A stretch of 34,242 nucleotides of DNA, from positions 1-34,242 of the forward strand of contig JAKAXT010000012.1 of NCBI GenBank assembly GCA_021816425.1. The letters run 5' to 3'. The notes under the pieces are model-generated. The model did not search any database. It was not told where the DNA came from and saw only the letters and a list, made by a program, of their open reading frames with translations. This DNA is from Pseudomonadota bacterium. Lineage in GTDB: Bacteria; Pseudomonadota; Gammaproteobacteria; Acidiferrobacterales; Acidiferrobacteraceae. Below, one piece after another: positions 3,217 through 18,299 of the stretch (within the stretch, counting starts at the first letter, position 1; each line of letters starts with the position of its first letter). Position numbers and translations under genes: made by a program.

Positions 3217-3360
3217 CGCCACGGTCCTTTGAGCGCCCCATCGCGCGTGACGCACCATATCCCGGCGTCGCCGCGTCCCCAACGTCCTAAAGTCGCTCCC
3301 ACCTTTATCGGCCGCCCGCCGCCACGTATGCTTGCGCATCGAGAATCGAGGCTGGGGCCG

Positions 3361-4530
3361 ATGGCCGGGAATCCCTTTGCACGCCTACTGGAGCCGCTCT
3401 TCGCGCGCGCCCGCGCCCGGGATCTGTGGCGGCGCCGCGAGATCCGCGCGTCCCCCCAGGCTCCCGTGATCCAGGTCGGGCGCGAGACGCTGCTGTCGTT
3501 TGCGAGCAACGACTACCTGGGGCTTGCCAACGATCCGCGGGTCGTGGAGGCGCTGTGCGCGGGGGCTCGGCGTTACGGCGCCGGGGCCGGCGCCTCGCAC
3601 CTCCTGGGCGGCCATACGGGCGCGCACCATGAACTCGAAGGGGCCTTGGCCGCCTTCACGGGCGCACCGCGGGCGCTCCTCTTTTCCACGGGGTACATGG
3701 CCAATCTCGCGCTTCTCACCACGCTTTGCCCGCGCCACGGCCAGGTCTTCGAAGACCGGCGCAATCACGCCTCCCTGCTGGACGCAGTCGCCCTCGCGCA
3801 GGCGCGAAGGCATCGTTATCGGGATATCGCGGGGCTTCGTGCCGCGCTCGCGGCAAGCGGCCCCGGAGGCCTCGTCGTAAGCGACGGCGTTTTCAGCATG
3901 GATGGCGACATGGCCGATGTCCCCGCGCTGCTTGCGCTCGCCAAGACGAAAGGCGCGGGCCTCATACTGGACGACGCCCATGCCTTCGGGGTGATGGGTC
4001 CGGGGGGGCGCGGCACGCCGGCCGCCCACGGCCTCGATTACGACACGGCCTTGGTCCGCATGGGGACCCTCGGCAAGGCCTTCGGCGTCTTCGGCGCCTT
4101 CGTCGCCGCCGATGCCGACGTCATAGAGGCCTTGATACAGCGGGCGCGCCCCTATATCTACACCACCGCCCTGCCTCCGGCCGTGGCGGCGTCCGCGCAA
4201 GCGGCCCTCGATCTCGTGATCGCGGGGGACGACAGGCGCGCCACGCTTTTTGATAATATTCGAAGGTTTCGCGAGGGCGCCTCGGCTCTCGGGCTCCGAC
4301 TGCTCCCGTCCCCGACCCCGATCCAGGCGGTCGTCTTCGGGGACGCGTCGCGCGCGATCACGGCAAGCGGCCACCTCCGCAATCGCGGCTTGTACGTCCC
4401 GGCCATACGCCCGCCCACGGTCCCCCAAGGCAGCGCCCGCCTGCGCGTGGCGCTCTCGGCGGCGCATGGCGCCGATGACGTCGACCGACTGCTCGAGGCC
4501 CTCGCGACCTCGCCCGAGGCGTCCGCCTGA
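3361..4530 (+). CDS. bioF: 8-amino-7-oxononanoate synthase BioF
   Basis: The 389-residue pyridoxal-phosphate enzyme condenses L-alanine with pimeloyl-ACP (or -CoA) to give 8-amino-7-oxononanoate, the first step of biotin ring assembly. The family landmarks are in order: FASNDYLGL, GAGASHLLGGH, FSTGYMAN, DGVFSMDGD, DDAHAFG, and GTLGKAFG with the PLP-binding K239. The length matches the usual 380-390 residues. The ATG at 3361 was chosen because it has a GAGG nine bases upstream and gives the normal N-terminus; an earlier ATG at 3328 and a much longer upstream open frame have no family support. The stop overlaps the bioH start by one base (TGATG), so the two are coupled. Confidence 0.95.
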   Translation: MAGNPFARLLEPLFARARARDLWRRREIRASPQAPVIQVGRETLLSFASNDYLGLANDPRVVEALCAGARRYGAGAGASHLLGGHTGAHHELEGALAAFTGAPRALLFSTGYMANLALLTTLCPRHGQVFEDRRNHASLLDAVALAQARRHRYRDIAGLRAALAASGPGGLVVSDGVFSMDGDMADVPALLALAKTKGAGLILDDAHAFGVMGPGGRGTPAAHGLDYDTALVRMGTLGKAFGVFGAFVAADADVIEALIQRARPYIYTTALPPAVAASAQAALDLVIAGDDRRATLFDNIRRFREGASALGLRLLPSPTPIQAVVFGDASRAITASGHLRNRGLYVPAIRPPTVPQGSARLRVALSAAHGADDVDRLLEALATSPEASA

Positions 4531-5246
4531 TGCTGTTTCTTCTCCATGGCTGGGGCTTGAATCGGCGCGTGTTCGCGGGGTTGGAGAACGCCCTCGGCAT
4601 CCCCGCGCGATCCCTGGATCTGCCGGGCCATGGCGAGGCCCCTTACGAGCCGGGCGCGCTCGACCCCGAAAGGCTCGCCGCGCGCCTGGCCGCCGCCCAT
4701 CCGGGCGCCCACGCCTGGCTCGGCTGGTCGCTCGGCGGGCTTGTGGCGCTTACGCTCGCCGCCCGCCACCCGCAGTCCGTGAGCCGGCTCGTTCTCGTCG
4801 GCGCCACCCCCCGTTTCGGGTGCGCCCCGGACTGGCCGCATGGCACGGAGCCTCGCGTCCTTCAGGCCTTCGCCGACCAGCTGGCCATCGATCCCGCGGC
4901 CACCGTTCGCCGCTTCCTCACCTTGCAGGCCGGGGCCGGGGCGCGCGCGGAGGCGCGCGCCCTCATGGCCGATCTCCAAGCCGGCGGCATGCCGCAGCCC
5001 GCGGCGCTCGCCGAAGGGCTTGCGGTCCTCCAGGGAAGCGATCGACGGGCCCTCTTGCCATCGATCGGCGCGCCGGTCCTTTTCGTGCATGCGGCAAGCG
5101 ACACCATCGTCCCGATCGAGGCCGCCCGCGCCGCCTCGCGGCTCGTGCCCCACGGACGGTTGCACGAGGCAGGCCGCGGGCACGCCCCCTTTCTGAACGC
5201 CGAGACCTCTGTCGCCACCCTCATACGGGACTTCCTTCGTGACTGA
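4530..5246 (+). CDS. bioH: Pimeloyl-ACP methyl ester carboxylesterase BioH
   Basis: This 238-residue alpha/beta hydrolase removes the methyl group from pimeloyl-ACP methyl ester, ending the disguised fatty-acid cycle that makes pimelate for biotin. The oxyanion segment LLHGWGLN lies near the N-terminus, the nucleophile elbow GWSLGG places S67, the acid is D191 in ASDTIVP, and the base is H218 in GRGHAPF. It is somewhat shorter than E. coli BioH (256 residues), mostly at the N-terminus. The gene starts one base inside the bioF stop codon and overlaps bioC by eight bases. Position between bioF and bioC makes BioH much more likely than another hydrolase. Confidence 0.92.
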   Translation: MLFLLHGWGLNRRVFAGLENALGIPARSLDLPGHGEAPYEPGALDPERLAARLAAAHPGAHAWLGWSLGGLVALTLAARHPQSVSRLVLVGATPRFGCAPDWPHGTEPRVLQAFADQLAIDPAATVRRFLTLQAGAGARAEARALMADLQAGGMPQPAALAEGLAVLQGSDRRALLPSIGAPVLFVHAASDTIVPIEAARAASRLVPHGRLHEAGRGHAPFLNAETSVATLIRDFLRD

Positions 5247-6090
5247 TCTGAGCCAGGAGGCCATTCGCCACAACTTCGACCGCGCGGCGCGCAGCTACGA
5301 CGAGGGCGCGGTTTTGCAACGCCGGGTTGCAGACGAGCTCTTGAGCCGATTCCAGTGGCTGCGCCTGGACCCCGACGTCTTGCTCGACGTGGGGACCGGG
5401 ACCGGCTACGCGATCCCCCATCTCCGCCGCCGCTTTCGCAATGCCCGGATCCTCGCCTGTGACATCGCGCTTTCCATGGCGCGTGCCGCGCGGCGTCACC
5501 GGAGCCTCTGGCGCCCGACCCCGGTGTGGGTGGCCGATGCCCACGATTTGCCCCTGCGCCCCGGCGCTGTGGACTGCATTTATTCGAGCCTCGCCCTCCA
5601 ATGGATGGATGCGCCACGGGCGTTCGCCGAATTTCGCCGGGTCCTGCGGCCCGACGGTCTGTTCACGTTCGCCACCTTCGGGCCCGATACCTTGCGGGAA
5701 ATGCGCGCCGCGTGGGAACAGGTGGACGACCGCCCCCACATCCACACCTTCGTGGACATGCATGACCTGGGGGATGCCTTGATCGGCAGCGGGTTCGCCG
5801 ACCCCGTGCTCGATGTCGAGCGCTATACCCTCACGTACGACTCGGTCCGCGACGCCTTGCGCGACCTGAAGCGCATCGGCGCGCACAATGCCGCCACGGG
5901 GCGCTTCCCGGGCCTCACGGGCAAGACCCGCTACCGGCGCTTCGAGGAGGCCTACGAGCGGTTCCGCCACGAAGGGCGTTTGCCCGTGACCTACGAGGTC
6001 GTCTATGGGCAGGCCTGGGTACCGAAGAACGCCCCACCCCCTTTCGTGCCGCCCTCCACGCGGCCCGTGATCCCGATCCGGAGCGCCTAG
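5239..6090 (+). CDS. bioC: Malonyl-ACP O-methyltransferase BioC
   Basis: This 283-residue SAM-dependent methyltransferase caps malonyl-ACP as a methyl ester so that fatty-acid synthesis can elongate it to pimelate. The N-terminus has the BioC hallmark FDRAARSYDEGAVLQ. SAM motif I is D50-VGTGTG-Y57, motif II falls near ADAHDLPL, and SSLALQWMD and FRRVLRPDG follow. The C-terminal region carries LRDLKRIGAHN, also typical. The start used is GTG at 5239, overlapping bioH by eight bases. In many Gammaproteobacteria the order is bioB-F-H-C-D; here bioB does not precede bioF and bioD does not follow, so the remaining steps must be encoded elsewhere. The operon seems to end here; a perfect 7-base inverted repeat follows at 6114-6128 but lacks a T-run. 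Confidence 0.93.
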   Translation: MTDLSQEAIRHNFDRAARSYDEGAVLQRRVADELLSRFQWLRLDPDVLLDVGTGTGYAIPHLRRRFRNARILACDIALSMARAARRHRSLWRPTPVWVADAHDLPLRPGAVDCIYSSLALQWMDAPRAFAEFRRVLRPDGLFTFATFGPDTLREMRAAWEQVDDRPHIHTFVDMHDLGDALIGSGFADPVLDVERYTLTYDSVRDALRDLKRIGAHNAATGRFPGLTGKTRYRRFEEAYERFRHEGRLPVTYEVVYGQAWVPKNAPPPFVPPSTRPVIPIRSA

Positions 6091-6486: not shown

Positions 6487-6743
6487 TCCCGCAGGCGTCC
6501 GGGCGCCTGCACCGCGTTTTGGGATGCGCAAGCCGGTGGCGGACCAGGGATACGTGCCCCTTTTCGGGCCGTCCCCACGGACAGCAGGTCCGCATGGCGC
6601 GTCGTGAAGCGACGGTGCCGATAGAAATCCCAGAACGCCGACCAGTCCGACGCCGGACCCGCTCCTAGAACACCCCTCCATCTCCCGAATGGCGCGCCGC
6701 GCCCGTCCCACGTATCGTGCCCGTCCTCAATGGAGGCACGCCC

Positions 6744-7046
6744 ATGAAAATATGGATACCACTCATGCTCTGCGCGGAAAGCCCGGCGGCGATGGCCATC
6801 ATGCGTCTGCCGGGATACGCGCAGGGGTCCGATCTGCGCATAACGATAGAGGAGCGGGCGCACGCGATAACGGACGTCATTGCGCTCGTGGTAAGCATCC
6901 TGGCGATCATAGGGATTCTGATCGGCGCGGGCTATTTCGCGATAGGCCAGGGCGAGCGAGGCAAGAGCTATGTCGTGGGCAGCGTCCTGGGGCTCGTCCT
7001 TGCGGCGAGCGCCTATGGAATCGCGGCCCTGGTGGTCGGCGCGTGA
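6744..7046 (+). CDS. VirB2/TrbC-like pilin candidate of a type IV secretion-like cluster
   Basis: This small 100-residue protein has a hydrophobic N-terminus (residues 3-26) that could act as an export signal ending near GYAQG. Two transmembrane helices follow at about 45-67 and 77-98, separated by a short polar loop GQGERGKS. Size, two-helix topology and first position in the operon match VirB2/TrbC pilins, which form the conjugative pilus or channel lining. The start at 6744 is fixed by a GGAGG seven bases upstream; an earlier in-frame start at 6717 lacks one. The stop overlaps the next gene by one base. Sequence identity to known pilins is not obvious by eye, so the call rests mainly on topology and context. 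Confidence 0.6.
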   Translation: MKIWIPLMLCAESPAAMAIMRLPGYAQGSDLRITIEERAHAITDVIALVVSILAIIGILIGAGYFAIGQGERGKSYVVGSVLGLVLAASAYGIAALVVGA

Positions 7047-7312
7047 TGGCGTTCAACAAGCGTCTGGCACCCCCGAGAATCATGGGGTTGCCCCTTGGCG
7101 CGGCGATCGCGGGGCTTGTGACCCTTACGGGGGCGCTCGCCTCGGTGGTCTTGCCGAGTCCCGGAGGGCCGGTCGCGGTGATCGCGGCGATAGCCGCGCT
7201 CCCTTTCGGGATTGCGGCCGCGCTCGTCGGCGACGACGTCGCGTTCGCCCGTGTCTATTGGCTTTCGAGGCGTGAGCGGCGTATCGCCGCACGGGAGGGG
7301 CTATGGCCTTAG
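7046..7312 (+). CDS. VirB3/TraL-like small membrane protein
   Basis: The 88-residue protein has a short cytoplasmic N-terminus (KRLAPPRIMG), two transmembrane helices at about 15-35 and 42-61 with a tight LPSPGGP turn, and a basic cytoplasmic tail. VirB3 proteins are this size and topology and sit directly before VirB4, as here. In known systems VirB3 partners with VirB4 at the inner membrane. The ATG at 7046 overlaps the stop of the preceding gene (TGATG), and its 3' end overlaps the next gene by ten bases. The family call is by size, helices and position, not by a diagnostic motif. Confidence 0.6.
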   Translation: MAFNKRLAPPRIMGLPLGAAIAGLVTLTGALASVVLPSPGGPVAVIAAIAALPFGIAAALVGDDVAFARVYWLSRRERRIAAREGLWP

Positions 7313-9615
7313 GGGCGCGACGCTATTGCGATGTGTATACGTGGTCACACGGCCTGAGCGAGAGCGTGGTCGCTCATGGTGACGGCGCCGCGTCGCTCGC
7401 CATCCTCTGGAACGGCCTCGATGGGGAGTTCGAGGATCGCGCCGGGCGCAGTCGCGAGTGGGCCGCCATAGAGAGGGTCCTCGATCGCCTTCCGGAGCAG
7501 TACTGGCTCGAGTTTCACCTGTGGCGCGAGCGCCGCGCCGACGCGGCGAGGGATTATCTCGCGCATTATGAGCAGGCAACGCGCAAGAGCCCATTCGCCG
7601 CGACCATGCGCCAGGCGATCGCCGAGCATCTGGCCCCCCATTTCCTCGTGAACGTCGTGGCGCTCATCGTCGGGCGTCTGCCAAGAATGGAAGCCGGCGT
7701 GCGACGGGCCCTGAACGGGCAGGCGCGCCGCGCAAAGGAGCTGGAGGCCCTGGCAGCGGAGCTTGCATCGCTCTTGCCGGGCGGCCGGATCGCGACGGTC
7801 CACGAATACGCCGGCCTCGTGCAGAGAAGCTACGACAAGGGTCCCGCGCTCGCGGCCTTCGATCCATGGCTGTCGCTCGCCGAACAGCTGGTGGTCGTGC
7901 CCCCGAGGCCCCAGAGACGCGCCTTGGACGTGGATGGGCGGGTCGTCCGCATGCACTACCTGCATCTCTATCCCGAGGTCGACTCCGCGTGGATTCTCCC
8001 GAGCGTTTCGGGCTCGATCAGCCTGCACGTCTCCCAGGTCGTCATGCCGGCCACGACGGAGCGGGCGCTTCGGGCCTCGGAGCGCGCCGACAGGCTCGCG
8101 CAGGGGGGCCTTGCAAACAAGGGCCGGGAGCGGCAACTGGCGGCGCTGAAGGAGATGCAGCATTTCCGGCAGGAGGTGGCCGACCATGACTGGCGGGTGC
8201 ACCGCAACGCCTACATGGTGTGCGCGGAAATAGAAAACGTGCCAGCGGCGGCGCTCACGCAGCTCATCGAGGGTTTGCAGGGCCGGGGCGGGCGCGTGCG
8301 AGATGACGACTTCGTGCAGCTTCCCTTCTTCCGGGTATCCCAGCCCGGGCAGGGCTACCGCGCGCCGATCTGGCGGCCGGATCACGCCGCGTTGATAGCG
8401 GCCATGGCCCCGACGCAGGTGTTCCGTGCCGGTTCGCCGCACCCCGAGTCCCTGCGATTGGGGCTTGCCTCCCAGCCGCTCCACTTCGATTACAGCCATC
8501 AGGTCGTGGCGCACGGCTTTACGGTGGCCATGACCGGCGCCGGCAAGGGGGTCGACAAGGTGGCGACCATGATAGAGACCTATCCCTTCGGGGTGGACTG
8601 GTATGTCCTGGAGATCGGGTCGACTTACCGCTGGGCCGTGGAGGCGCTCGGGGGCCGCTATACGAGGATCGATCCGGGCACATGCGCGGTGAACCCCCTG
8701 CCGCGGCGGGCCCCGGGAGCCGCGGGCCTCGATCCGCTGCTCGCATCGGGCACGTTGAACATCCTGGCCTTCATCCTCACAGACGGGCGCACGCTTCTCG
8801 ATTTCCACGAGCAGGCCGCGGGCGCGGCGGCCCTTACGCGGCTCTACGGAACCGACGCGCCCACCGATCCAGGGCTCGCGGACTTCCTCGTCTCCCTTGA
8901 GGAACTGACGGACGTAAGCCCGGAACAGCGGCAGGCCGCGCACGTCATGGCGGCCAACCTGCACAGCTTTCTCGAGACGCCCGAGGGGCGGATATTCGCG
9001 GGCCCGGACAACGTTCATCTAAGCCCCGGCATCAGCGGAGTGGATCTCAGGGACGTGGACAGGGCGAGCCCGAAATTGCTCACCTTCTATCTCGTGTTCC
9101 TCTGCCTGCGCTTCCTGAATCTCGCCTTCGCCAACAGAAACCAGGCCCGTGTCCTGCTCGACGAGATCCACCGATTCGTGGCCCACGCCCCGGGGGTCTT
9201 GTCGCGTCTCGTGTCGGAGATCGCGCGCATGGGGCGCAAGGAGGCCGCGGCGGTCGATATCGTGACCCAAGGCCTCGCCGAAATCGATCTCATGGAAAAG
9301 GAGATCGTGAACTCGATGCCGCTGCGGTCCCTTCTCTACCGCAACGACGGCTGGGAGGAGATCGCCGCCCGCATCGGGATGCCGGAGAGGGCGCTCCAGC
9401 TGTGGAGGCGCCTGCCGTTCCCTTTGAATCTGCCCTGGCGCCCCGCGATTCGGTCCGTGGGCCCCGAGTACTACGGTTTGCGCCTGACCTTCCCGCGCAT
9501 GGTCCTGGCCCTTGCCGATACGACACCCGAGGGGCTTGCACGCAAGGAACGGCTGGGCGCGGAGTCTTCCGACCCGCTTGCGCGCCTTGCCCGATATCTG
9601 GAGGAGCGGCCATGA
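7303..9615 (+). CDS. VirB4/TraC-like secretion ATPase with degenerate P-loop
   Basis: The 770-residue protein has the VirB4 plan: an N-terminal half with the CagE/TrbE-like region (about 1-380), then a RecA-like ATPase. After the P-loop the order Y-V-L-E-I-G-S-T-Y-R, EALGGRY, RIDPG, NPLP matches VirB4/TraC proteins closely. A Walker B VLLDEIHRF places D620 and E621, followed by a RKEAAAVDIVTQGL segment. The P-loop itself reads A-M-T-G-A-G-K415-G: the lysine is kept but the usual final Ser/Thr is Gly416 and the first Gly is Ala409. VirB4 ATPases energise pilus and channel assembly at the inner membrane. The ATG at 7303 has a GGAGGGG unusually close (two bases). The gene overlaps its neighbours by ten and four bases. 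Confidence 0.85.
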   Translation: MALGARRYCDVYTWSHGLSESVVAHGDGAASLAILWNGLDGEFEDRAGRSREWAAIERVLDRLPEQYWLEFHLWRERRADAARDYLAHYEQATRKSPFAATMRQAIAEHLAPHFLVNVVALIVGRLPRMEAGVRRALNGQARRAKELEALAAELASLLPGGRIATVHEYAGLVQRSYDKGPALAAFDPWLSLAEQLVVVPPRPQRRALDVDGRVVRMHYLHLYPEVDSAWILPSVSGSISLHVSQVVMPATTERALRASERADRLAQGGLANKGRERQLAALKEMQHFRQEVADHDWRVHRNAYMVCAEIENVPAAALTQLIEGLQGRGGRVRDDDFVQLPFFRVSQPGQGYRAPIWRPDHAALIAAMAPTQVFRAGSPHPESLRLGLASQPLHFDYSHQVVAHGFTVAMTGAGKGVDKVATMIETYPFGVDWYVLEIGSTYRWAVEALGGRYTRIDPGTCAVNPLPRRAPGAAGLDPLLASGTLNILAFILTDGRTLLDFHEQAAGAAALTRLYGTDAPTDPGLADFLVSLEELTDVSPEQRQAAHVMAANLHSFLETPEGRIFAGPDNVHLSPGISGVDLRDVDRASPKLLTFYLVFLCLRFLNLAFANRNQARVLLDEIHRFVAHAPGVLSRLVSEIARMGRKEAAAVDIVTQGLAEIDLMEKEIVNSMPLRSLLYRNDGWEEIAARIGMPERALQLWRRLPFPLNLPWRPAIRSVGPEYYGLRLTFPRMVLALADTTPEGLARKERLGAESSDPLARLARYLEERP

Positions 9616-10238
9616 CGCGGCTTGGCGCAGCGGCGCTTTTGTGGCTGGGCGCGATCGCGCCGGCGTGGGCGTTCCTCGGCGTGGGCGACGTCACGTTCGA
9701 TCCGCCGGTGCATGCGGAGCTCGTCAGCCTCCTCGATCAGACGCTCGCGATCTATCGCACCGCCTTGCGGGAGGTCCGCAGGCTCCAGACGGTCGAGTCG
9801 ACGCTGCGCGAGGCCAATCGGGACGCGCGCGTCATCGCGAACGGGGATCTCGCGCGTTACGAGGAGCAAGGCCTGCCCGCGGGCCTGCCGCGGGGCCTGA
9901 AGTCGCTGCTCGCCCGCACCGGCGCGGCATCGGACAACGCCAGCGCGTATGGCGGCTATCTGCGCCAGCAGGCGCGGCGCTTCGGGCGGCTTGCGCGCCT
10001 GCGTTGGTTGAGGCGCGGCGTGAGGCGCGACGCGCGGCTCTCGGCCACGAGCCTCGGGGTCCGTACGAGCGGCGAGGTCACCGCCCGCTCGACCGCGACG
10101 CTCGCGGGCCTGGCCGCAAGGCGGGCCCGGTCCCGCGAACGGCGCGCCATACGCCACGCCGCCGAGCGGCGCAACGCCCGGCGCCTGCCGCGGGAGGCGG
10201 CGTCCTTGTATCGCGCCTTTGGGGGCGGCCATGAATAG
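9612..10238 (+). CDS. VirB5/TrbJ-like exported protein candidate
   Basis: This 208-residue protein has a clear signal peptide (residues 1-20, ending PAWA before FLG). The mature N-terminus is GVGDVTFDPPVHAELVS, then a helical segment LLDQTLAIYRTALREVRRLQ. TrbJ/VirB5 proteins likewise begin with a short D-P-containing segment and continue as long alpha-helices in the periplasm, where they act as minor pilus components. The C-terminal third is extremely Arg/Ala-rich. Position between VirB4 and the polytopic VirB6-like protein is where VirB5 is normally found. It overlaps the previous gene by four bases (ATGA) and the next by eight. The assignment is by context and general pattern. Confidence 0.55.
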   Translation: MTRLGAAALLWLGAIAPAWAFLGVGDVTFDPPVHAELVSLLDQTLAIYRTALREVRRLQTVESTLREANRDARVIANGDLARYEEQGLPAGLPRGLKSLLARTGAASDNASAYGGYLRQQARRFGRLARLRWLRRGVRRDARLSATSLGVRTSGEVTARSTATLAGLAARRARSRERRAIRHAAERRNARRLPREAASLYRAFGGGHE

Positions 10239-11319
10239 CGCCTCGCTCGTCGTTCATCTCCTGGGCCACTTGGCGCCCGGCGGTGTATATCGTGCCGCCG
10301 CGCCCGTGGCGGGCGTCCTGATGCGTACCGTGACGCCGTCACTGTTCGTGGTGGCCCTGTACACGCGGCTCCTCGAGGCGCAGATGGATTCCGTGTCGGG
10401 CTTCGGGCAGCTCGCCCACGTCATCCGCGACATCGTCGTCTGGGGCGTCGTCCTGGTGGCCTATTTCGCGCTCGGCGGCCTTCTGAATCACTACCTGAAC
10501 GCCTTGTACGTGGCCATGGGTCGCATAGGGTCGCTGCGCTCGGTGGCCACGCAGATGGCGGCCTTGCTCGACGTCGCGGCCAAAGGCCCGAGCGGTGTGT
10601 GGAGCACGATAAAGGAGATCAATGCCCTGCCGTTACGCTTCGCGACGGTGCTCATCTACTACGCCACCTTGATCATGACGACCTTCCTCCAGGCCCTGCT
10701 GCGCATTGCCCAGGCGATAGGCTATGAGTTCGCCTTCCTCTACGGGCTCATCGCCCTACCGCTCGCCCTTAGCAGGACGCTGTCGCTCGCGCGCGGTTTC
10801 GCGAAGCTTATGGGCTTCTTCATCCTTTGGCCCATCGTGCAGGCGCTGTTGCTGGCCGTGTTCTCGCCCCTCTTCACCCACGCGGTGGCCGATCTCCAAA
10901 AGCTTATCGGTCCCGCCGATTACATGACCGTGTACGCGCACATGCTGTTTACCATCCTGAACCTCATCCTGTGCGCCGTCCTGCTCGCCGCTCCCTACAT
11001 AACGGCAGGCCTCATAGAGAACGCGGGCGCCGCCCAGCCCCTGCTCGCCCCCGCCCTGGCCGGACTTTCGTCGGTCGGGACGACGTTCGCGGCGGGCGTC
11101 GGTCACGGGACCGCGCGGGCGGTCGACTACTACTTGTACGGCCCGGACGATGACGTCCTCTCCGTGCCCCCGAGGCCCATGCCCGAACTGCACGTGCCGC
11201 GCGACCCGGACTTCATCCCGAGTGGACAGGACGGCGGTGCGCCGCACACGAACTACCTGAAGCCTCAATACGACGGGCCCCCGAAAAAAGATCAATCCGA
11301 TGACTTCTCCAGACGCTAA
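10231..11319 (+). CDS. VirB6/TrbL-like polytopic membrane protein
   Basis: The 362-residue protein has about six hydrophobic helices in two groups: residues roughly 70-92 and 135-160 in the first half, then a cluster from about 165 to 275. A hydrophilic, Pro-rich C-terminal tail (about 300-362) follows. VirB6/TrbL/TraG-N family proteins have this topology and form the inner-membrane part of the channel. The ATG at 10231 was preferred over an upstream TTG at 10219 because it follows a GGGGGCGG stretch. It overlaps the previous gene by eight bases and the next by twenty. No diagnostic motif is visible, as is usual for this poorly conserved family; gene order carries most of the weight. Confidence 0.6.
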   Translation: MNSASLVVHLLGHLAPGGVYRAAAPVAGVLMRTVTPSLFVVALYTRLLEAQMDSVSGFGQLAHVIRDIVVWGVVLVAYFALGGLLNHYLNALYVAMGRIGSLRSVATQMAALLDVAAKGPSGVWSTIKEINALPLRFATVLIYYATLIMTTFLQALLRIAQAIGYEFAFLYGLIALPLALSRTLSLARGFAKLMGFFILWPIVQALLLAVFSPLFTHAVADLQKLIGPADYMTVYAHMLFTILNLILCAVLLAAPYITAGLIENAGAAQPLLAPALAGLSSVGTTFAAGVGHGTARAVDYYLYGPDDDVLSVPPRPMPELHVPRDPDFIPSGQDGGAPHTNYLKPQYDGPPKKDQSDDFSRR

Positions 11320-11926
11320 GGTGTGGGGCCGCCATGGGCCCCAAGGGCTTCTGATGCAGCGCCTGGCGCGCTACGCGCTGCTGGGTTGGGGGCTGTTCGC
11401 CTGCGCCGCCGCAGCCTTCGTGGTGCTTGCGATCGTGGCCGTGTGGCGCACGCCGCCCATCATCGCCGTCGACCGCTCCGGCACCGTTCTCGGGCGCATG
11501 CAATGGCTTGACGCCGCGCACAGGTCGCGGCGCGACGTGATCGCGGCCTCGATGCGTTTTCTGCGCGATTATCTGAGCGCCAACGCCCCGACCGTGGTCC
11601 CGGACTACATCGAGGCTCTGGACATGATGGCGCCCGCGCTCAGAAGCACGACCGTGGCGGCGCTTCGCAAGACCGCCTATCTCGCGCGCGTCCGCGCGGC
11701 GGGCATACGCTCCTGGGTGAGCTTCGCCGAGGGTCGCCGCCGGCCGCGCGTGGTCCGCAAGGGCGCGCGGGAATTCCTGGTGCGCCTGGAGGGAACCCTC
11801 CATGTCGTCGTGCGGACCGGGCGGCAGTACCGCGAGCGCTTCGCGTATTTGCTGACGGCGATCGCCGTGGCGCGTCGTCCGCACGACACAGCCGGCCTAC
11901 GCATCGAAGGAATCGACCCGCTATGA
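11300..11926 (+). CDS. VirB8/TrbF-like bitopic protein candidate
   Basis: This 208-residue protein has a short cytoplasmic N-terminus and one transmembrane helix at about 23-48, immediately followed by a periplasmic segment TPPIIAVDRSGTV. The rest is a mixed alpha/beta domain (about 60-208). Single N-terminal helix, periplasmic globular domain and position between VirB6 and VirB9 candidates fit VirB8/TrbF/TraE, a scaffold of the inner-membrane complex. TraE-like proteins also have a conserved region just after the helix. It overlaps the previous gene by twenty bases and the next by four. Identification is by topology and order. Confidence 0.55.
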   Translation: MTSPDAKVWGRHGPQGLLMQRLARYALLGWGLFACAAAAFVVLAIVAVWRTPPIIAVDRSGTVLGRMQWLDAAHRSRRDVIAASMRFLRDYLSANAPTVVPDYIEALDMMAPALRSTTVAALRKTAYLARVRAAGIRSWVSFAEGRRRPRVVRKGAREFLVRLEGTLHVVVRTGRQYRERFAYLLTAIAVARRPHDTAGLRIEGIDPL

Positions 11927-12678
11927 CCGCCCCCATGCCGACTTTGCTGCGGCCGCTTGCGCCCCACGCCCGCGTGGTGGTCTTGCGGCCCTACCGCGCA
12001 TTGTCCGCCGCCATCGTGCCCGACCTCGGGCTGCGGCTCGTCTTCCCAAGCGGCGCGCCGGCGGCCCGCTTCGCGCTCACCAACCCCCTGTTCTCCGCCG
12101 CGAGATTGGGCCGGCGCGCCATCCTGATCACCGTGGCGCGCGGCATGGCCCGGCGTTACTGCGGGAACGCGTACATGGATTGGGAAGGATATTTCGTCTC
12201 GCTGCTCGTTTGCACGAGCGCCCACGGACGGCATTACACGAGCGACATCCTCTTTCGGCGCCCGAGCGTCCCCAGGCCCCCGGTCGCGGTGCGTCCCAGA
12301 CCGCGTTCCCCGTGGGCCGCGGCGTGGGCCTACGCGGCCTTCGGGCCCGTTCCCCGGATCGCGATCCGCAAGCGCGTCGCCTTGAAGCGGGGCGCGAGGA
12401 CCGTGGTCCTCTCGGTGCGGCGCATGTTGCTCATGCCGCGTACCGCGGTCCTCGGCTTCGCGCTCGCCGGGGACGCGGGGCCCGGCCCCGTCGATGGCGC
12501 GATCCTCTACCGCGGCCGCGGCAAATGGCGGGAGGTGCCGACGATGCTGAGCTGCAGGGCAAGCGCCGCCGCCGGGGGCGTCGCCTGCGCGCTCTCCCTG
12601 GCGCCCCCCAAGGACCCCGTAAGGCGCTGGCATCTCGTCGTCATGACCGCGCTTGGGGCGGCGCGCCTGTCATGGTGA
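11923..12678 (+). CDS. VirB9/TraK-like protein candidate without evident signal peptide
   Basis: The 251-residue protein is beta-rich: ARVVVLRPYRALSAAIV near the N-terminus, LRLVFPS, AILITVARG and HYTSDILF in the first half, a Pro/Arg-rich linker around 108-125, and a second beta domain (about 130-251). VirB9/TraK proteins have two beta domains joined by a linker and work in the outer-membrane core complex beside VirB10. Unlike them, this product shows no hydrophobic signal peptide from the annotated ATG, which is fixed by the ATGA overlap with the previous gene. Either export is atypical or the family call is wrong. It overlaps the VirB10 candidate by seven bases. Confidence 0.45.
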   Translation: MTAPMPTLLRPLAPHARVVVLRPYRALSAAIVPDLGLRLVFPSGAPAARFALTNPLFSAARLGRRAILITVARGMARRYCGNAYMDWEGYFVSLLVCTSAHGRHYTSDILFRRPSVPRPPVAVRPRPRSPWAAAWAYAAFGPVPRIAIRKRVALKRGARTVVLSVRRMLLMPRTAVLGFALAGDAGPGPVDGAILYRGRGKWREVPTMLSCRASAAAGGVACALSLAPPKDPVRRWHLVVMTALGAARLSW

Positions 12679-13394
12679 CCGCGGCCGTGCGAGCCCCCAC
12701 CGTCATCGTGCACCGCCTCATAGACGAGCGGCCGGCGCCACCGTCCCTGTTCCATCGCCTTCTGGCGCTGGCCGGGGGTCCGGCGCGTCGCCCGCGGCGG
12801 CCGAACCCTCCGCCCCGGCCGCGCGCGGCCCTGCCGTTTGCCGTGGCCGCATCGCGCGCGCGGCCCGTGATATTGCCCAACCCGCCGCATGGCCTGGGCA
12901 TCCGGGCCGGCACGTGGGTCGCAGTCACGCTGCGCCGCGGCGTCACCGATGTCGATTCGACCCTGGTCGTTTTGCATGTGGGGGCGCCTGTGCGCGGCCT
13001 CTGGGGCGTCCTGCCGGCCGGCACGCGGCTTTTGGGGCGGGTGGAGGGTCAGGCCCTCGGGCGGATCCGCATCGCCGTAAGTCAGGCGGTCACGCCGCGC
13101 GGGCGGCGCCTGCCCTTCGACGCGGCGGTCTTTGGGGCCGACCGGGGGCCCGGGCTGCCCGCCTACGTCGTGGGCGGGCGGCGCAGGACGGTCCTGGCCG
13201 CGTTCGCCTCATCGGTGGTGGAGGGTGTCGATGCGCTCATGGGGTCGGCCGCGGCGCAGGGCTCGGCCGAGGCCGCGGCCCTGGGGCAGGTGGGTACGAA
13301 CACGTTGAACGCGGCGGCCGTTTGGCGCGCCCCGCGCCGGATTCTTTACGCCCCGGCGCAGCAAGGTTACGTCCAGACACAAAAGGGATCGTGA
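12672..13394 (+). CDS. VirB10/TrbI-like protein, C-terminal domain only
   Basis: The 240-residue protein shows a recognisable VirB10 C-terminal fold pattern: RAGTWVAVTLRRGVTD (78-93), LPAGTRLLGRVEG (114-126), RIRIAVSQAVTPRGRRLPF (131-149) and FGADRGPGLPAYV. These correspond to the TrbI/VirB10 segments around 'iPqGtrLiGey' and 'vsWnRlifPdG'. In known systems VirB10 spans from inner to outer membrane through an N-terminal helix and a Pro-rich stalk. Here the first 75 residues are basic and Pro-rich (40-52) but contain no transmembrane helix or signal peptide, so the anchor is missing. The ATG at 12672 overlaps the VirB9-like stop; a longer open frame upstream runs antiparallel in composition to the VirB9 gene and is rejected. 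Confidence 0.7.
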   Translation: MVTAAVRAPTVIVHRLIDERPAPPSLFHRLLALAGGPARRPRRPNPPPRPRAALPFAVAASRARPVILPNPPHGLGIRAGTWVAVTLRRGVTDVDSTLVVLHVGAPVRGLWGVLPAGTRLLGRVEGQALGRIRIAVSQAVTPRGRRLPFDAAVFGADRGPGLPAYVVGGRRRTVLAAFASSVVEGVDALMGSAAAQGSAEAAALGQVGTNTLNAAAVWRAPRRILYAPAQQGYVQTQKGS

Positions 13395-13396
13395 TC

Positions 13397-13951
13397 ATGA
13401 AAACATGGGTAAGGAGGGTGTGGCTTGCCGCGGCCCTGGGCCTTGCGCCCACCTGCGGCGCGTGGCGCCTGTCGGTGGGCGGCGGCCTTTTGGCGGGCAT
13501 CGTGCCGGCGCCATCGCCCGCGGCGACCGCCCTCGGGTGGCAGTTTGCGGGCCAGTGGACGCGCGAGGGCTATGTCGGGCAGCGGTGGCTGGTCGACCTG
13601 ACGGCGGGCCAATTCGCGACGCGGCCCGGGGCGGGCGGCCTGCTGGAGCGGGGGCGCGAGCTGGGCGGGCTCGTCTTGTGGGAGCGGAGGGTCCCGTTCA
13701 GCTACGCGTTTCGGCCTTGGGTGGGGGTGGGCGCCGGCGTCACGCACTACCGGTTCGATGACCGACTGCGCCTGAACGCCAATGGCTACGCGGTGGGCAC
13801 GAGCCCCGACGACTCGGAAAACGATGCGGATCTCGGTATCGGCGCGAACATCCCTTTGGGTCGGTCATGGTCCATCGGGATCACGGCGCAAACCGGCTTC
13901 CCATCGCACCTGTCGACGTTTGGCGTAACTGTTCTATGGAGGCTATTTTGA
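13397..13951 (+). CDS. Small outer-membrane beta-barrel protein in the secretion-like operon
   Basis: This 184-residue protein has a signal peptide (residues 1-22, ending CGA) and alternating hydrophobic beta strands such as LSVGGGLLAGI, FRPWVGVGAGVTHYRF and FGVTVLWRLF. The terminal Phe and preceding Trp/Leu fit the BAM assembly signal for outer-membrane barrels. An 8-strand barrel is likely from the length. The start at 13397 has AAGGG nine bases upstream; a GTG at 13391 is also possible. It begins two bases after the VirB10-like gene and its stop overlaps the lipoprotein gene, placing it in the same operon. Its function is unknown; an outer-membrane partner or anchor for the VirB9/B10-like proteins is an inference. 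Confidence 0.65.
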   Translation: MKTWVRRVWLAAALGLAPTCGAWRLSVGGGLLAGIVPAPSPAATALGWQFAGQWTREGYVGQRWLVDLTAGQFATRPGAGGLLERGRELGGLVLWERRVPFSYAFRPWVGVGAGVTHYRFDDRLRLNANGYAVGTSPDDSENDADLGIGANIPLGRSWSIGITAQTGFPSHLSTFGVTVLWRLF

Positions 13952-15366
13952 ACAAGAGACATCACGGTCTATGGATTTTCGTCGCGGGGCTTGCATTGAG
14001 CGGATGCCGACTGGGGAACCCGGCTTCGCCTCCCGCGCTCCCGCCCGGACAGATCGACGGGTACGTGGTGAGCGGGGGGCCCGTGGCCGGGGCGTCGGTC
14101 ACCGTCACCGGTGCGGGCGGCACCTTGGGCGCCACGCGCACGGACGACAGCGGACACTTCGCGCTCGATGTCCAGAGTCTGGACGCGACGCTCGAGGTCA
14201 CGGCGAGCGGCGGCTCCTATGTCGGCGCAGGCGGGACCAACGCCACGTCCGGCGTGTTGCGCGGGGTCTTCCCCTATCAAAACGGCGGCGCAGTCCAGGT
14301 GGCGGTGGACCCGTTGACCACGGCGATGGCCGCCTATGACGGTTATCTCCAGGGCCAGGGGGTCGACCTGAACGACGCCGCGGTGCGCGCACGCGCCGCC
14401 TTCGTCGATTGGCTCGGCTTCGATCCGACGACGACGCAGCCCGTGATGCCGGCGGACGCCGGGACCGGGACTGCGCTCACGAGCGGCCTGCGCCACGGGC
14501 TTGTGGTCGCCGCCTTGACGCGGTTTGCGCGCGAAAACGGGAGCCGTACCGGCACCATCGCGGGGCTCATGGCATCCGACCTCGCCTTCGACGGGATCCT
14601 AGACGGCGTGGGCGCAAGCGGGCCTCTGAAGCTCGGCGCCCTGCCCTTGTCGACGGCGGCGTATCGGCAGGGGATCGCCCAGGCCTTCCTGCAGGCGGCC
14701 GCGGCCGCGGCGCCCGCCTCGCCCGACGCCCTTCCGGGGCCGAATGCGGCGGCGCTCCTCGCCTACGCGCAGACGCTCGCCCAATCCCCCTCGCCCCTGT
14801 TCGGGACCGGGCCCGCGCCGGCGTTCCCGGGCGGCGGCCTTTCCTTGTCTCTGTCGCCATGGGCCGCGTGGACGCACGGGCCGATCACGATCGCGGGCAC
14901 GACGAGCGATCCCTATGGGCTTCCGGTGGCGGTGACGATCGCCATCGATCACACGCCCTACCAGACGGTTACGGCCGCGCCCGCTTTCGCGTTTCTGATC
15001 GACACGAGTGCGTTCGCCGACGGCACCCATGACCTGTCCGTGAGCGCCCACGATGCGGCCGGGGAGAGCGCCTCCTACGACGGGTCGCTCGGCGTCGACA
15101 ACACGCCGCCGCAGGCCTGCCTGTCCGTCTTCCAGCCGACCATGCAGGGCATCATGCTCGCGGGAAAGTGGCAGGACCTCTCGGGGGTGGTCGCGGCAAG
15201 CGCCGACGGGGTCGCGCTTTCCCTCTTCTCCGCGGGCACCTGGGAGGGCGTGGTGCCGACGCCGTTGCCGTCGCCCACGACGGTCACCTTCGTGGATGCC
15301 GCCGGCAACGAGCAGAATTATTCGTGGGTATTGGACGGCCAGACCAATCCCGCGCCCTGCTCGTGA
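13948..15366 (+). CDS. Lipoprotein with carboxypeptidase-regulatory-like and Ig-like domains
   Basis: The 472-residue product begins at TTG 13948, which has GGAGG five bases upstream and overlaps the previous stop by four bases (TTGA). A lipoprotein signal ends in LSGC with C20 as the lipidated residue; Arg at +2 suggests outer-membrane sorting. Next is a carboxypeptidase-regulatory-like beta-sandwich (about 25-80, GQIDGYVVSGGPVAGASVTV), a middle alpha-helical region (about 100-290), and one or two Ig-like beta-sandwiches (about 300-465) with a VDNTPP linker. Two cysteines near the C-terminus (in QACLSVF and at the end, PAPCS) may pair. Such domain sets are typical of surface-exposed adhesin or scaffold proteins. 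Being last in the secretion-like operon, it may replace the VirB7 lipoprotein or act as a surface substrate. Confidence 0.7.
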   Translation: MNKRHHGLWIFVAGLALSGCRLGNPASPPALPPGQIDGYVVSGGPVAGASVTVTGAGGTLGATRTDDSGHFALDVQSLDATLEVTASGGSYVGAGGTNATSGVLRGVFPYQNGGAVQVAVDPLTTAMAAYDGYLQGQGVDLNDAAVRARAAFVDWLGFDPTTTQPVMPADAGTGTALTSGLRHGLVVAALTRFARENGSRTGTIAGLMASDLAFDGILDGVGASGPLKLGALPLSTAAYRQGIAQAFLQAAAAAAPASPDALPGPNAAALLAYAQTLAQSPSPLFGTGPAPAFPGGGLSLSLSPWAAWTHGPITIAGTTSDPYGLPVAVTIAIDHTPYQTVTAAPAFAFLIDTSAFADGTHDLSVSAHDAAGESASYDGSLGVDNTPPQACLSVFQPTMQGIMLAGKWQDLSGVVAASADGVALSLFSAGTWEGVVPTPLPSPTTVTFVDAAGNEQNYSWVLDGQTNPAPCS

Positions 15367-15464: not shown

Positions 15465-16643
15465 ATGGAAACCCTCGCGATCCCGCTCCCCGCCAATCTC
15501 CCGCCGGATGTGTGCGCGGAGATATCGAAGCGTGCGTGCTATTGCGACACCGCTATCCTGAAGTCGCGCTACCGCCAGGACTCGAACTGTCTCGAGATCG
15601 ACCTGCAAGGCACGGGCGCCGGTGGTGATGTCGCCGCCAAGCTCGAACACCTGATCGGAAAGATGCAGGGCGAACGCCTGGCCGTGACGCCGCGCGTCCT
15701 GCGCGACCGCTCGCGCGACCCGGACGGTTTCGTGCCCACCGCCTACGAGCAACTCGCGGCGCGCGGCCACGTGTGGGCGGCCGGCCCGGGCGTGGTTGGC
15801 CGCGGCGGCGCGTTCATGCGGCTTTTGGGCCGGCTCGATGGCGCCATAGAACGGCTCGCGGTGCGCGAGTTCCAGGCCACCCCGCAGTCCTATAACTCGC
15901 TCGTCCCGAGCGACTGGTTGCGTCGCGCGGGCTACTTCGGTTCGTTTTCGCATTCCGTCACCTTCGCGGTCCATCTGAGGGAGGACTTCGAGGCGATCGA
16001 ACGCTTCGGCAGGCGCCATCGCCAGGGGGAGAACCCCACGTTCGAGGAGGCAGGCGAGCTCGCGCCCCCGGAACATTGCCTGTCGCCCGCCGTGTGCTAC
16101 CACACCTACGGCGCGCTCATGGGGCAGCATCTTTCCGCGGGGGCGGCGTCGGCCTTCACCGGCCACGGGCGATGCTTCCGGTACGAGTCGAAGAACCTCA
16201 AAGGCCTCGATCGGCTCTGGGAGTTTTCCATGCGCGAGATCGTGTGGCTCGGTGACAGCGAGGCGGTGCTCGGTGCGCGGGAGCGGGCCATCGACGCGGC
16301 ATGGAGGCTCGTCGAGCTCCTCGACCTGTCGGCGCGCCTCGAGACGGCCTGCGATCCGTTCTTCGCGAGCGATTTCCCGTCGCTGCGATTCTTCCAGCTC
16401 GCCAACGACTTGAAGTATGAGCTGAAGATCGACGTCGCGCCGGGCGAATCGATCGCCTGCGCGTCGTTCAATTATCACGAGCGGTTTTTCGGGACCCGAT
16501 TCGAGATCACCGCGGACCGCGGCGAGGCCGCCCATACCGGGTGCGCGGCCTTCGGCCTCGAGCGCCTGTTGTACGCGTGTTATTGCCAGCACGGTCTCGA
16601 GCGCGCCGAGGCGCTGGTCGAGAACGCGGCCGCCCGTCTTTAG
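15465..16643 (+). CDS. Amino acid:[carrier protein] ligase homologue (SerRS-like class II core)
   Basis: The 392-residue protein resembles the class II synthetase-like enzymes that activate an amino acid with ATP and load it on the phosphopantetheine arm of a carrier protein instead of a tRNA (described from Bradyrhizobium and Agrobacterium). Motif 2 is GRCFRYESKNLKGLDRLWEFSMREIV (split at 236-240 and 241-260) and motif 3 is GLERLLYAC. Candidate zinc ligands C211 (AVCYHTY), E258 (MREI) and C360 (HTGCAAFG) have nearly the same spacing as the known Cys-Glu-Cys set. About 100 extra N-terminal residues precede the core. There is no tRNA-binding coiled coil. ATG 15465 has AAGGA ten bases upstream. 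No carrier-protein gene is adjacent, which is unusual for this family. Confidence 0.85.
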   Translation: METLAIPLPANLPPDVCAEISKRACYCDTAILKSRYRQDSNCLEIDLQGTGAGGDVAAKLEHLIGKMQGERLAVTPRVLRDRSRDPDGFVPTAYEQLAARGHVWAAGPGVVGRGGAFMRLLGRLDGAIERLAVREFQATPQSYNSLVPSDWLRRAGYFGSFSHSVTFAVHLREDFEAIERFGRRHRQGENPTFEEAGELAPPEHCLSPAVCYHTYGALMGQHLSAGAASAFTGHGRCFRYESKNLKGLDRLWEFSMREIVWLGDSEAVLGARERAIDAAWRLVELLDLSARLETACDPFFASDFPSLRFFQLANDLKYELKIDVAPGESIACASFNYHERFFGTRFEITADRGEAAHTGCAAFGLERLLYACYCQHGLERAEALVENAAARL

Positions 16644-16722
16644 GCGGCCCCTTGGAGTCTTCGCGAGTTATCGTCTTTGACTGGAGGAGCGGGTCCGACG
16701 CAAGCCGGCCCGAGCGACGGTG

Positions 16723-17724
16723 ATGAATATTCAGCCCATGGAATTGTTTGACGAGGTTGTGAATCCCGACCTGGACGAAGTGAGCGCCCTCATGCGGGCG
16801 AACTGGACGCCGCCTTGCTGGCTCTACGAGCCGGACCTTTTGGCCATGCACATCATGAGGCCCACCGCGGACCCGTCGATGGCGGTGGGCCTGCGCGCGA
16901 AGAGCGGCGAACTGGCCTCCTATCTCGCGTTCGTGCCCCTGCGCCTGCGCATCCACGGCCGCATCTACAAGGCCGTGTTTGCGAGCTTTTTCACGGTTTC
17001 CGGCCACTACCGGCGTCATCGCCTGAGCGATCGCCAGCAGGGGCTCATGGTGGATCGCGCGCGCGATCGCGGTTATGAGGTGTACGCGGCGGTCACCGTC
17101 GCCGGGACGCCGGCCAACCAGACCGTGGCGCGGGCGTTCGGGGCGCGCGGCCTGCCGGTGCGCGCCGCGTACAATTTCCGTTACCTCGCGGGGGCCCGGG
17201 CGATCGTGGCGACCCGTCTGGGCGCCGGCGCCGCAGGAAATGTGCGGCCTTACGCGCCAAGCGACGAGGACGTCGCGTTCGCGCTGCTGTCGGAGGCCGC
17301 GGCCTGCGCGCCGCTTGCGCAGGTGGTGGAGCGCGAGGACGTCGACTTCTCTCTGCGCGGCCGGCCGCGGATCAAGACCTACGTCTACGAGAGCGAGGCC
17401 GGCGTCCAGGCCCTCATGAGCGTCTCCTTGCTGCCGGTGCTGTCGGGGCGGGTCGGTCTGAACGCTTATGTGGAGGCGCTCGCGCTCGGGCGCCTGGAGC
17501 CCGCGGCGCGCATGGCCTTCGTCGACGCGGTGCTGCGTTCGGTGCTCCTGGAAGGGGCCGAGGCGATCATGGTGCCGGACACGGGCCGCGCTGATCTCGC
17601 GGTGTTCAGGCGCCTGGGCTTTCGGGCCGCCCCACGGAAGCTTCGGCTTCTGCTCGCCCCCTTGCGCACGGACGTGACCGACCTTCCGGAGACGGTGGAT
17701 GGGTTCTGCCTCGACGTGTTCTGA
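16723..17724 (+). CDS. GNAT-superfamily-like N-acyltransferase
   Basis: The 333-residue protein has two GNAT-like halves. The first contains VGLRAKSGELASYLAFVPL, then ASFFTVSGHYRRHRLSDRQQ, where an acetyl-CoA pyrophosphate loop would normally be (Q/R-x-x-G-x-G/A is not strict here), and RARDRGYEVYAAVT. The second half ends with AFVDAVLRSVLLEGAEAIMVPDTGRADLAVFRRLGF, a typical GNAT beta-alpha C-terminal end. Proteins of this size and layout often transfer amino acids or long acyl groups from a carrier. It follows the carrier-protein ligase by 79 bases and precedes the hexapeptide transferase by two, so a shared pathway is likely. The start ATG 16723 is chosen over GTG 16720; neither has a strong ribosome site. 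The substrate is unknown. Confidence 0.65.
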   Translation: MNIQPMELFDEVVNPDLDEVSALMRANWTPPCWLYEPDLLAMHIMRPTADPSMAVGLRAKSGELASYLAFVPLRLRIHGRIYKAVFASFFTVSGHYRRHRLSDRQQGLMVDRARDRGYEVYAAVTVAGTPANQTVARAFGARGLPVRAAYNFRYLAGARAIVATRLGAGAAGNVRPYAPSDEDVAFALLSEAAACAPLAQVVEREDVDFSLRGRPRIKTYVYESEAGVQALMSVSLLPVLSGRVGLNAYVEALALGRLEPAARMAFVDAVLRSVLLEGAEAIMVPDTGRADLAVFRRLGFRAAPRKLRLLLAPLRTDVTDLPETVDGFCLDVF

Positions 17725-17726
17725 GC

Positions 17727-18299
17727 ATGGCGACGGGTTTTAGGGAGACCGTGCGGGTCCTGCTCGCGGGCCTCGGGACCGTGATCGCGCTGCCGGCTTT
17801 GGTCATCGCCGACTGGGGCCGCCTGGACGAGGGTTTCATCCTGGGCGGCCAGGCCCTCGCCCTGGTGCCGGGGGTCATAGGCGATGCCGCGCGCGCCGCC
17901 TTCTATGCGCGCACGCTCGCGCTCTTCGAACCGGGCGCGGCGGTACGCTTCGGGAGTTATTTTTCGAAACGCGGCGCGCGCGTCCATGCGGGCGCCGGGA
18001 TAGGGGCCTATTGCGTCATAGGCCTGGCCGACTTAGGGCCGCGCGTGCGGATCGCAAGCCGCGTGTCCATCACTTCGGGTCTTCATTATCACGGCAGCGC
18101 CGCCCGCGGCGTGGAGGATCGGGACGTGGTCGAGCGGGTGACCATAGGCGCCAACACCTGGATCGGGGAGGGGGCGGTCATCGGCGCCGACGTAGGCGCC
18201 AACTGCATCGTCGGCATGGGGTCGGTCGTCATTCAGCCGGTTCCGGACGGGTCCACGGTCATGGGCAATCCGGCCCGGCGCATCCCCACGGCCGCCTGA
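17727..18299 (+). CDS. Hexapeptide-repeat (left-handed beta-helix) acyltransferase
   Basis: The 190-residue protein has an N-terminal part with a hydrophobic helix (about 8-28). Hexapeptide repeats then run from about residue 70 to 180, with turns such as ARVHAGAGIGAYCVIGLADLG, VTIGANTWIGEGAVIGADVG and NCIVGMGSVVI. It ends VMGNPARRIP, the usual C-terminus of acetyl/acyltransferases of the WcaF/NodL/CysE type. The His in GLHYHGSA is a candidate catalytic base. These enzymes O- or N-acylate sugars or small molecules using acyl-CoA or acyl-ACP. Two bases separate it from the GNAT-like gene. The exact substrate cannot be read from the sequence. Confidence 0.75.
   Translation: MATGFRETVRVLLAGLGTVIALPALVIADWGRLDEGFILGGQALALVPGVIGDAARAAFYARTLALFEPGAAVRFGSYFSKRGARVHAGAGIGAYCVIGLADLGPRVRIASRVSITSGLHYHGSAARGVEDRDVVERVTIGANTWIGEGAVIGADVGANCIVGMGSVVIQPVPDGSTVMGNPARRIPTAA

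Follow-up and report, generated by a model that had tools for sequence, protein, structure and literature searches.

The window analyzed here is a 34,242-nt stretch (positions 1 to 34,242 of contig JAKAXT010000012.1, assembly GCA_021816425.1) from a member of the Acidiferrobacteraceae; it is contig C119 of a 2.3-Mb genome in 160 contigs. It carries three consecutive genes, referred to below as the trio: a relative of the amino acid:[carrier protein] (AA:CP) ligases, a putative acyltransferase of the N-myristoyltransferase (NMT) type, and a hexapeptide acyltransferase. The trio is considered together with a carrier protein encoded on another contig.

15465..16643, plus strand: gene 1, relative of AA:CP ligases, 392 aa (matches to NF005479 and PDB Bll0957)
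16720 (GTG) or 16723 (ATG)..17724, plus strand: gene 2, predicted NMT-type double-GNAT acyltransferase, about 334 aa (profile and fold)
17727..18299, plus strand: gene 3, hexapeptide acyltransferase, left-handed beta-helix, 190 aa (Pfam Hexapep)

The original prediction, made from the letters of the window, described a cluster of carrier-protein ligase, GNAT-like, and hexapeptide transferases with no carrier protein. The three open genes at 15465-18299 exist as called, and none contains an internal stop. Genes 1 and 2 are separated by 76 or 79 bases, depending on the start of gene 2; as had been stated, this gap leaves no room for a carrier.

The trio was conserved well beyond chance. Among 96 relatives searched, a close ligase was found in 12 of 14 genus genomes (own genome included) and in none of four genomes from the other genera of the family; elsewhere in the order there was one distant match (30% identity). 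Sixteen ligase loci were confirmed in the species collection (nine in the genus, five in Zixiibacteriota, and two more distant), and the five Zixiibacteriota ligases were 49-54% identical over nearly their full length. The trio was collinear in all 12 ligase-bearing genus genomes and at all five of these Zixiibacteriota loci (tblastn), and a sixth Zixiibacteriota genome (G160) showed the same order. The original prediction had made its case depend on the three genes staying together in related genomes, and they did (12/12 in the genus and 6/6 in Zixiibacteriota). Genes 2 and 3 were not seen by tblastn at the two distant ligase loci or in the order relative, and a gene 2 search in G045, G622, and G623, which carry distant ligases, found no copy. 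Profile searches for both genes in 18 family genomes and in 132 Zixiibacteriota-phylum genomes found ligase and gene 2 together in 12 and 6 of them, respectively, and never one alone. The genus locus was flanked by a conserved lipoprotein gene on one side and by rpoH-ftsX-ftsE on the other (9/9 loci tested). At one Zixiibacteriota locus (L031), the tenth codon of the ligase frame is TAA (10028-10030); the true start may lie downstream, the gene may be broken, or the sequence may contain an error.

Two further readings were rejected. NMT-like proteins did not prove widespread in the window's phylum: of 398 genomes sampled there, the own genome was the single one in which gene 2 was found. A viral or mobile origin was set aside: the viral contigs had no ligase relative, and the plasmids had no gene 2 relative.

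None of the five PP-binding matches of the own genome lay on the contig of the window. In Zixiibacteriota, a carrier gene of about 77-82 aa lay directly upstream of the ligase at 6/6 loci, its end no more than a few bases from where the ligase begins. Orthologs of this carrier were found as follows:

G000:C54:10626-10886, minus strand: carrier ortholog, own genome, on a different contig, outside the window
L071 7991-8251: carrier copy, sister genus (G014)
L072 8028-8288: carrier copy, sister genus (G016)
L073 8212-8472: carrier copy, sister genus (G017)

The C54 carrier was 46-54% identical to the six Zixiibacteriota carriers, and the other four PP-binding proteins of the own genome were 19-34% identical to them. 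Its sequence is similar to that of ordinary acyl carrier proteins (ACPs): the best 60 of its 108 PDB matches were all ACPs or ACP-like. Its phosphopantetheine motif is LGVESVN, and the Ser was invariant in 12 aligned carriers. Of the 14 genus genomes, 13 had the carrier, among them every one of the 12 that hold the ligase; three genomes of the sister genus had it as well. G012 (77% complete) had the carrier and no ligase was found in it; neither was found in G013. In the complete genome G005, the carrier lay about 435 kb from the trio. Its locus was syntenic in both genera and adjoined response-regulator-like and Kdo-hydroxylase-like genes (named by eye).

By sequence comparison, the C54 carrier is a dedicated ortholog and not a housekeeping ACP. 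Two other candidates were rejected as partners: the housekeeping AcpP, with 19-28% identity to the partner carriers as against 46-54% for the C54 carrier, and the carrier on contig C52, whose neighbors include an AMP-ligase-like gene and a gene 3 paralog and which also reached just 19-28%. This second carrier of the own genome (L035, G000:C52, 5968-6570, and L004) adjoins AMP-ligase-like, NadE-like, and hexapeptide paralog genes; the hexapeptide paralog is 45% identical to gene 3, and the whole is apparently a separate carrier-plus-hexapeptide set. The absence of a carrier, which had been claimed for the cluster, thus does not hold in the wider sense: a partner exists and adjoins the ligase in 6/6 Zixiibacteriota loci. 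The suggestion of a distant or housekeeping ACP stood in its first part (the carrier is encoded on another contig) and failed in its second. The proposed search for an orphan carrier did recover a distant one, but the DSL motif recommended for it would miss the C54 carrier because its motif is ESV. The carriers were acidic (computed pI 4.2-5.1, five computed), but two Zixiibacteriota copies of gene 2 for which pI was computed were also acidic (4.9-5.0), and overall charge was therefore given no weight for carrier binding. Acidic carriers together with the invariant arginines of gene 2 described below would fit such binding.

Gene 1 matched NCBIfam NF005479 (amino acid--[acyl-carrier-protein] ligase) with an E-value of 1.5e-42 and 145.7 bits (cut-off 357), and by this curated cut-off it is a relative and not an equivalog. 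Against Bll0957 in the PDB (4h2w/3mey) the E-value was 7e-30 with the single sequence and 9e-37 with a profile, and the AA:CP ligase assignment was right. The class II core, resembling archaeal seryl-tRNA synthetase (SerRS), spans residues ~108-379 and is preceded by an N-terminal region. The Cys-Glu-Cys zinc set (C211, E258, and C360) was invariant in 18/18 aligned ligases and met its Bll0957 counterparts in the profile alignment; R239, E241, G364, and R367 were likewise invariant (18/18). The zinc set had been read correctly from the window, and R239, E241, and R367 count among the class II motif residues. A Cys-x-Cys pair at residues 25-27 (RACYCD), within the N-terminal region, was also unvarying in 18/18. 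A structure prediction for the ligase (pLDDT 57.6) was not used. Compared with Bll0957 of Bradyrhizobium, gene 1 has the same SerRS-like core, zinc set, and motif 2/3 residues, and its Zixiibacteriota copies share the adjoining carrier. It differs in having about 54 extra residues before the matched core, including C25-x-C27, and in its NMT-type and hexapeptide partners, with the carrier unlinked in the genus.

The AA:CP ligases came to light in 2010, and the purpose of the loaded amino acid is little understood. In a plasmid survey, 93 records matched the ligase and four, from Streptomyces, reached at least 80% query coverage; these four have the N-terminal region in common with gene 1. At two of the Streptomyces loci (L086 and L088), a full-length relative (33% identity over 97-98%) stands two genes after an ACP. 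These cassettes differ from the trio in carrying dehydrogenases and an acyltransferase of the polyketide synthase (PKS) type, and no NMT-type or hexapeptide partners; they presumably resemble makers of aminomalonyl-ACP (zwittermicin type). AA:CP ligases are reported to charge carriers with Gly or Ala (PMC5370406). Ser would also be possible as the loaded amino acid, because the full-length Streptomyces relatives look aminomalonyl-ACP-like. On a Tsukamurella plasmid (L090, 3975-6807), an AA:CP ligase, an ACP, and a phosphopantetheinyl transferase occur within an exopolysaccharide gene cluster.

Gene 2 had been described as GNAT-like. A profile of 11 homologs gave 47 PDB matches at E-values up to 1, of which 41 were NMTs (best 4.4e-8); the six others had E-values of 0.19 or worse. 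Gene 2 aligned collinearly with Plasmodium vivax NMT from residue 32 to residue 311. Pfam gave weak agreement: at E-values up to 0.1, four of the 11 members matched NMT, three NMT_C, four Acetyltransf_1, and four Acetyltransf_9; gene 2 of the window scored 20.0 bits against NMT (gathering score 25). Pfam NMT exceeded its cut-off in 2 of the 96 genomes, both of this genus, and in none of 14 control genomes. Weak matches were a 293-aa GNAT-like open reading frame with no ligase visible at its locus (G076) and one on a 3.9-kb contig (G037). The AlphaFold2 model of gene 2 had a pLDDT of 91.1 and a pTM of 0.88. The 50 best chains listed by Foldseek were all NMTs (best E-value 1.3e-23, TM 0.75-0.82 by query length), as were all 50 rows listed by VIA (Z 31.0-32.1, rmsd 2.2-2.8, 298-307 residues aligned). 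On this model, gene 2 is an NMT-type double-GNAT protein rather than a generic GNAT; the GNAT fold of the earlier description stood, and its generic character did not (41/47 PDB matches; Z as above). A Fem/MprF-like aminoacyltransferase was rejected as an identity for gene 2: neither the PDB profile search nor the 50 VIA rows listed contained a match of this kind, an absence that does not by itself exclude such a relation.

The last residue of the model, 334, ended the aligned range in every one of the 50 VIA rows listed and met residue 496 (human), 492 (Aspergillus), 421 (Leishmania), 410 (P. vivax), or 409 of the matched chain. All 19 gene 2 homologs, from 18 genomes, ended at the same aligned position, with Phe in 12 and Tyr in 7. 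By position, the modeled C-terminus sits at the catalytic terminus of NMT. The base of NMT is reported to be its own C-terminal carboxylate, a feature said to occur in no other GNAT (PMC4964394, PMC7048800), and its acceptor to be an N-terminal Gly (PMC7048800). F90 was invariant and was followed by F or L at position 91; this pair aligned with the NFL of yeast NMT, F90 with its oxyanion Phe. The invariant Y36 aligned with the Tyr in the FNY of the yeast enzyme. In the HMMER alignment, gene 2 has RxAPR, with R302 and R306 invariant, where P. vivax NMT has its GxGDG loop; we take the peptide-recognition Asp471 (human numbering) to lie in the GDG of this loop. At L031, a second, diverged NMT-like gene directly follows the first (12214-13227), and this copy has RxxxR at the position of the loop. 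Gene 2 is like eukaryotic NMTs (human NMT1, yeast, and P. vivax) in double-GNAT fold, oxyanion Phe, and place of the C-terminal residue, and unlike them in being only 15-19% identical, in its changed T282/N246 counterparts and GxGDG loop, and in belonging to a bacterial carrier-protein gene set.

Gene 3 matched Pfam Hexapep (PF00132) with an E-value of 2.1e-8 and 33.9 bits (cut-off 27). It has a hydrophobic N-terminal segment (residues 9-27) and is probably membrane-anchored. H122, presumably the catalytic His, was invariant (10/10). Its solved relatives were mainly sugar and antibiotic O-acetyltransferases; acyl-ACP O-acyltransferases of the LpxA type stood far down the list (weak, E-value 4e-6). 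The trio copies of gene 3 grouped together, apart from same-genome paralogs (support 100/99, with a long-branch warning). A recent copying of gene 3 from local paralogs was rejected on this same single group.

Elsewhere in the window, positions 6689-15366 hold a TraC-like ATPase (TIGR02746, E-value 6e-12, under the cut-off) and conserved unnamed genes. This block closes with a lipoprotein-like gene (Big_13 domain) just before the trio, and the order is the same in the genus. An aminotransferase, an alpha/beta hydrolase, and a methyltransferase follow one another at 2995-6087 and have the look of bioF-bioH-bioC.

We tentatively favor, at somewhat less than even confidence, the reading that the trio and its unlinked dedicated carrier form one four-part pathway, in which an amino acid is N-acylated while bound to the carrier and is then handed over. 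The proposal starts from what the analysis showed, namely, the gene identities, the existence and conservation of the carrier, the co-occurrence, the NMT fold, and the position of the C-terminus. The ligase would adenylate a small amino acid (Gly, Ala, or Ser) and, as expected from its family, form a thioester with the phosphopantetheine of the carrier at the Ser of LGVESVN. The NMT-type enzyme would then take an acyl thioester, from acyl-CoA or acyl-ACP, and acylate the amino acid on the carrier at its free alpha-amino group, as NMT does with N-terminal glycine; its C-terminal carboxylate would be the base, and the backbone at F90/91 would form the oxyanion hole. N-acylation on the carrier is favored because NMT acylates a free alpha-amino group, and an amino acid bound to the carrier presents exactly this nucleophile. 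That the acceptor of this bacterial NMT relative is indeed such an amino group on a carrier thioester is possible, and we hold it as doubtful in itself. In the last and weakest step, the membrane-anchored gene 3 product might transfer the N-acyl-aminoacyl group from the carrier to an envelope lipid or glycan, at one of its hydroxyls or amines, which would yield a lipoamino-acid conjugate. The makers of glycine and ornithine lipids (the N-acyltransferases GlsB and OlsB) offer a parallel, in that an amino acid is N-acylated from a fatty acyl thioester and then linked further; unlike the proposed route, GlsB and OlsB act on the free amino acid, without an aminoacyl carrier. The tRNA-independent aminoacylation suggested in the original prediction is plausible, given the ligase relative, the conserved trio, and the distant carrier.

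Several observations weigh against this pathway. We infer the enzyme activities and the order of the steps. The carrier and the trio are unlinked in the genus, and three sister-genus genomes (G014, G016, and G017) keep the syntenic carrier without a ligase or an NMT-like gene, so that the carrier may have another role. The closest solved relatives of gene 3 are maltose and galactoside O-acetyltransferases, which are not carrier-dependent enzymes. By analogy, the aminomalonyl-ACP-like cassettes of Streptomyces point to Ser rather than Gly as the loaded amino acid. The counterparts of Thr282 and Asn246 of NMT (human numbering) are not kept in gene 2 (V/I/E and S/T), and the acceptor chemistry may differ for this reason. 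With F90, Y36, and the C-terminus retained, gene 2 looks preserved in its base and on the donor side; with the Thr, the Asn, and the GxGDG loop all changed, it does not look preserved on the peptide-reading side.

The main rival to N-acylation on the carrier is aminoacyl transfer to cell-surface sugars; the original prediction had likewise proposed that the amino acid goes to a sugar, lipid, or small molecule. Here, the NMT-type enzyme would use the aminoacyl-S-carrier as its donor and pass the amino acid on to an amine carried by a protein, sugar, or lipid, and gene 3 would acetylate elsewhere. Enzymes with a GNAT fold and an aminoacyl donor do exist, for example, Fem and MprF/VlmA, and according to a prediction in a note in proof from 2010, classical AA:CP ligase operons serve to add an amino acid to a cell-surface amino sugar (PMC2922099). 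The Tsukamurella relative within a glycosyltransferase cluster and the Zixiibacteriota loci L030 and L084, which lie amid apparent polysaccharide genes (identified by eye), are consistent with this. However, long acyl-CoA donors are what the NMT fold is made for, gene 2 retains the position of the catalytic terminus, and the PDB profile search gave gene 2 no Fem/MprF match, which does not exclude one. We regard this rival as unlikely.

Two further explanations are less probable. The aminoacyl-carrier could feed a specialized metabolite, a diffusible N-acyl amino acid (signal- or siderophore-like) freed by gene 3 or by hydrolysis, and Streptomyces AA:CP ligase relatives do occur in clusters resembling those for PKSs or nonribosomal peptide synthetases (NRPSs). 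However, no PKS/NRPS, transporter, or regulator was seen traveling with the trio, and its fixed place across the genus (9/9 loci) is more like that of a core envelope function; we consider a specialized metabolite improbable. We give still less credence to gene 2 being a true protein N-acyltransferase acting on N-terminal glycine and linked to the ligase by shared regulation rather than by substrate. The NMT fold and the C-terminus position of gene 2 agree with such an activity, but the GxGDG loop of P. vivax aligns with RxAPR, in which R302 and R306 are invariant, and ligase and gene 2 strictly co-occur across 18 genomes.

NMT-type structures outside eukaryotes have already been reported, and the gene context is what is new here. 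Structure searches published in 2025, in a paper on HisAT/NAT16, unexpectedly found them in archaea and bacteria, with a caution against inferring activity (PMC12219266). Those proteins resemble gene 2 in being non-eukaryotic and in having a C-terminus that reaches the active site, and they differ in that the portion of that source available to us gives no gene context or function for them, whereas gene 2 has a set of partners; the main text makes no mention of gene neighborhood, operon, or carrier protein. In the open-licence PubMed Central (PMC) literature, no title or abstract start among the papers listed joined an aminoacyl carrier with an NMT-type enzyme, and no paper contained both "aminoacyl carrier protein" and "myristoyltransferase."

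The gene set joins AA:CP ligases with bacterial NMT-type proteins, as four conserved parts and one testable reaction. If N-acylation on the carrier is true, then it would suggest a function for the little-understood relatives that NMT, an enzyme long thought to be confined to eukaryotes, has in bacteria, and a new class of lipoamino-acid products in acidophiles. Eukaryotic NMT would then be a relative or descendant of enzymes that acylate glycyl-like groups on phosphopantetheine carriers, its peptide-reading acidic loop would have been gained later, and the trio would hint at the origin of eukaryotic N-myristoylation chemistry.

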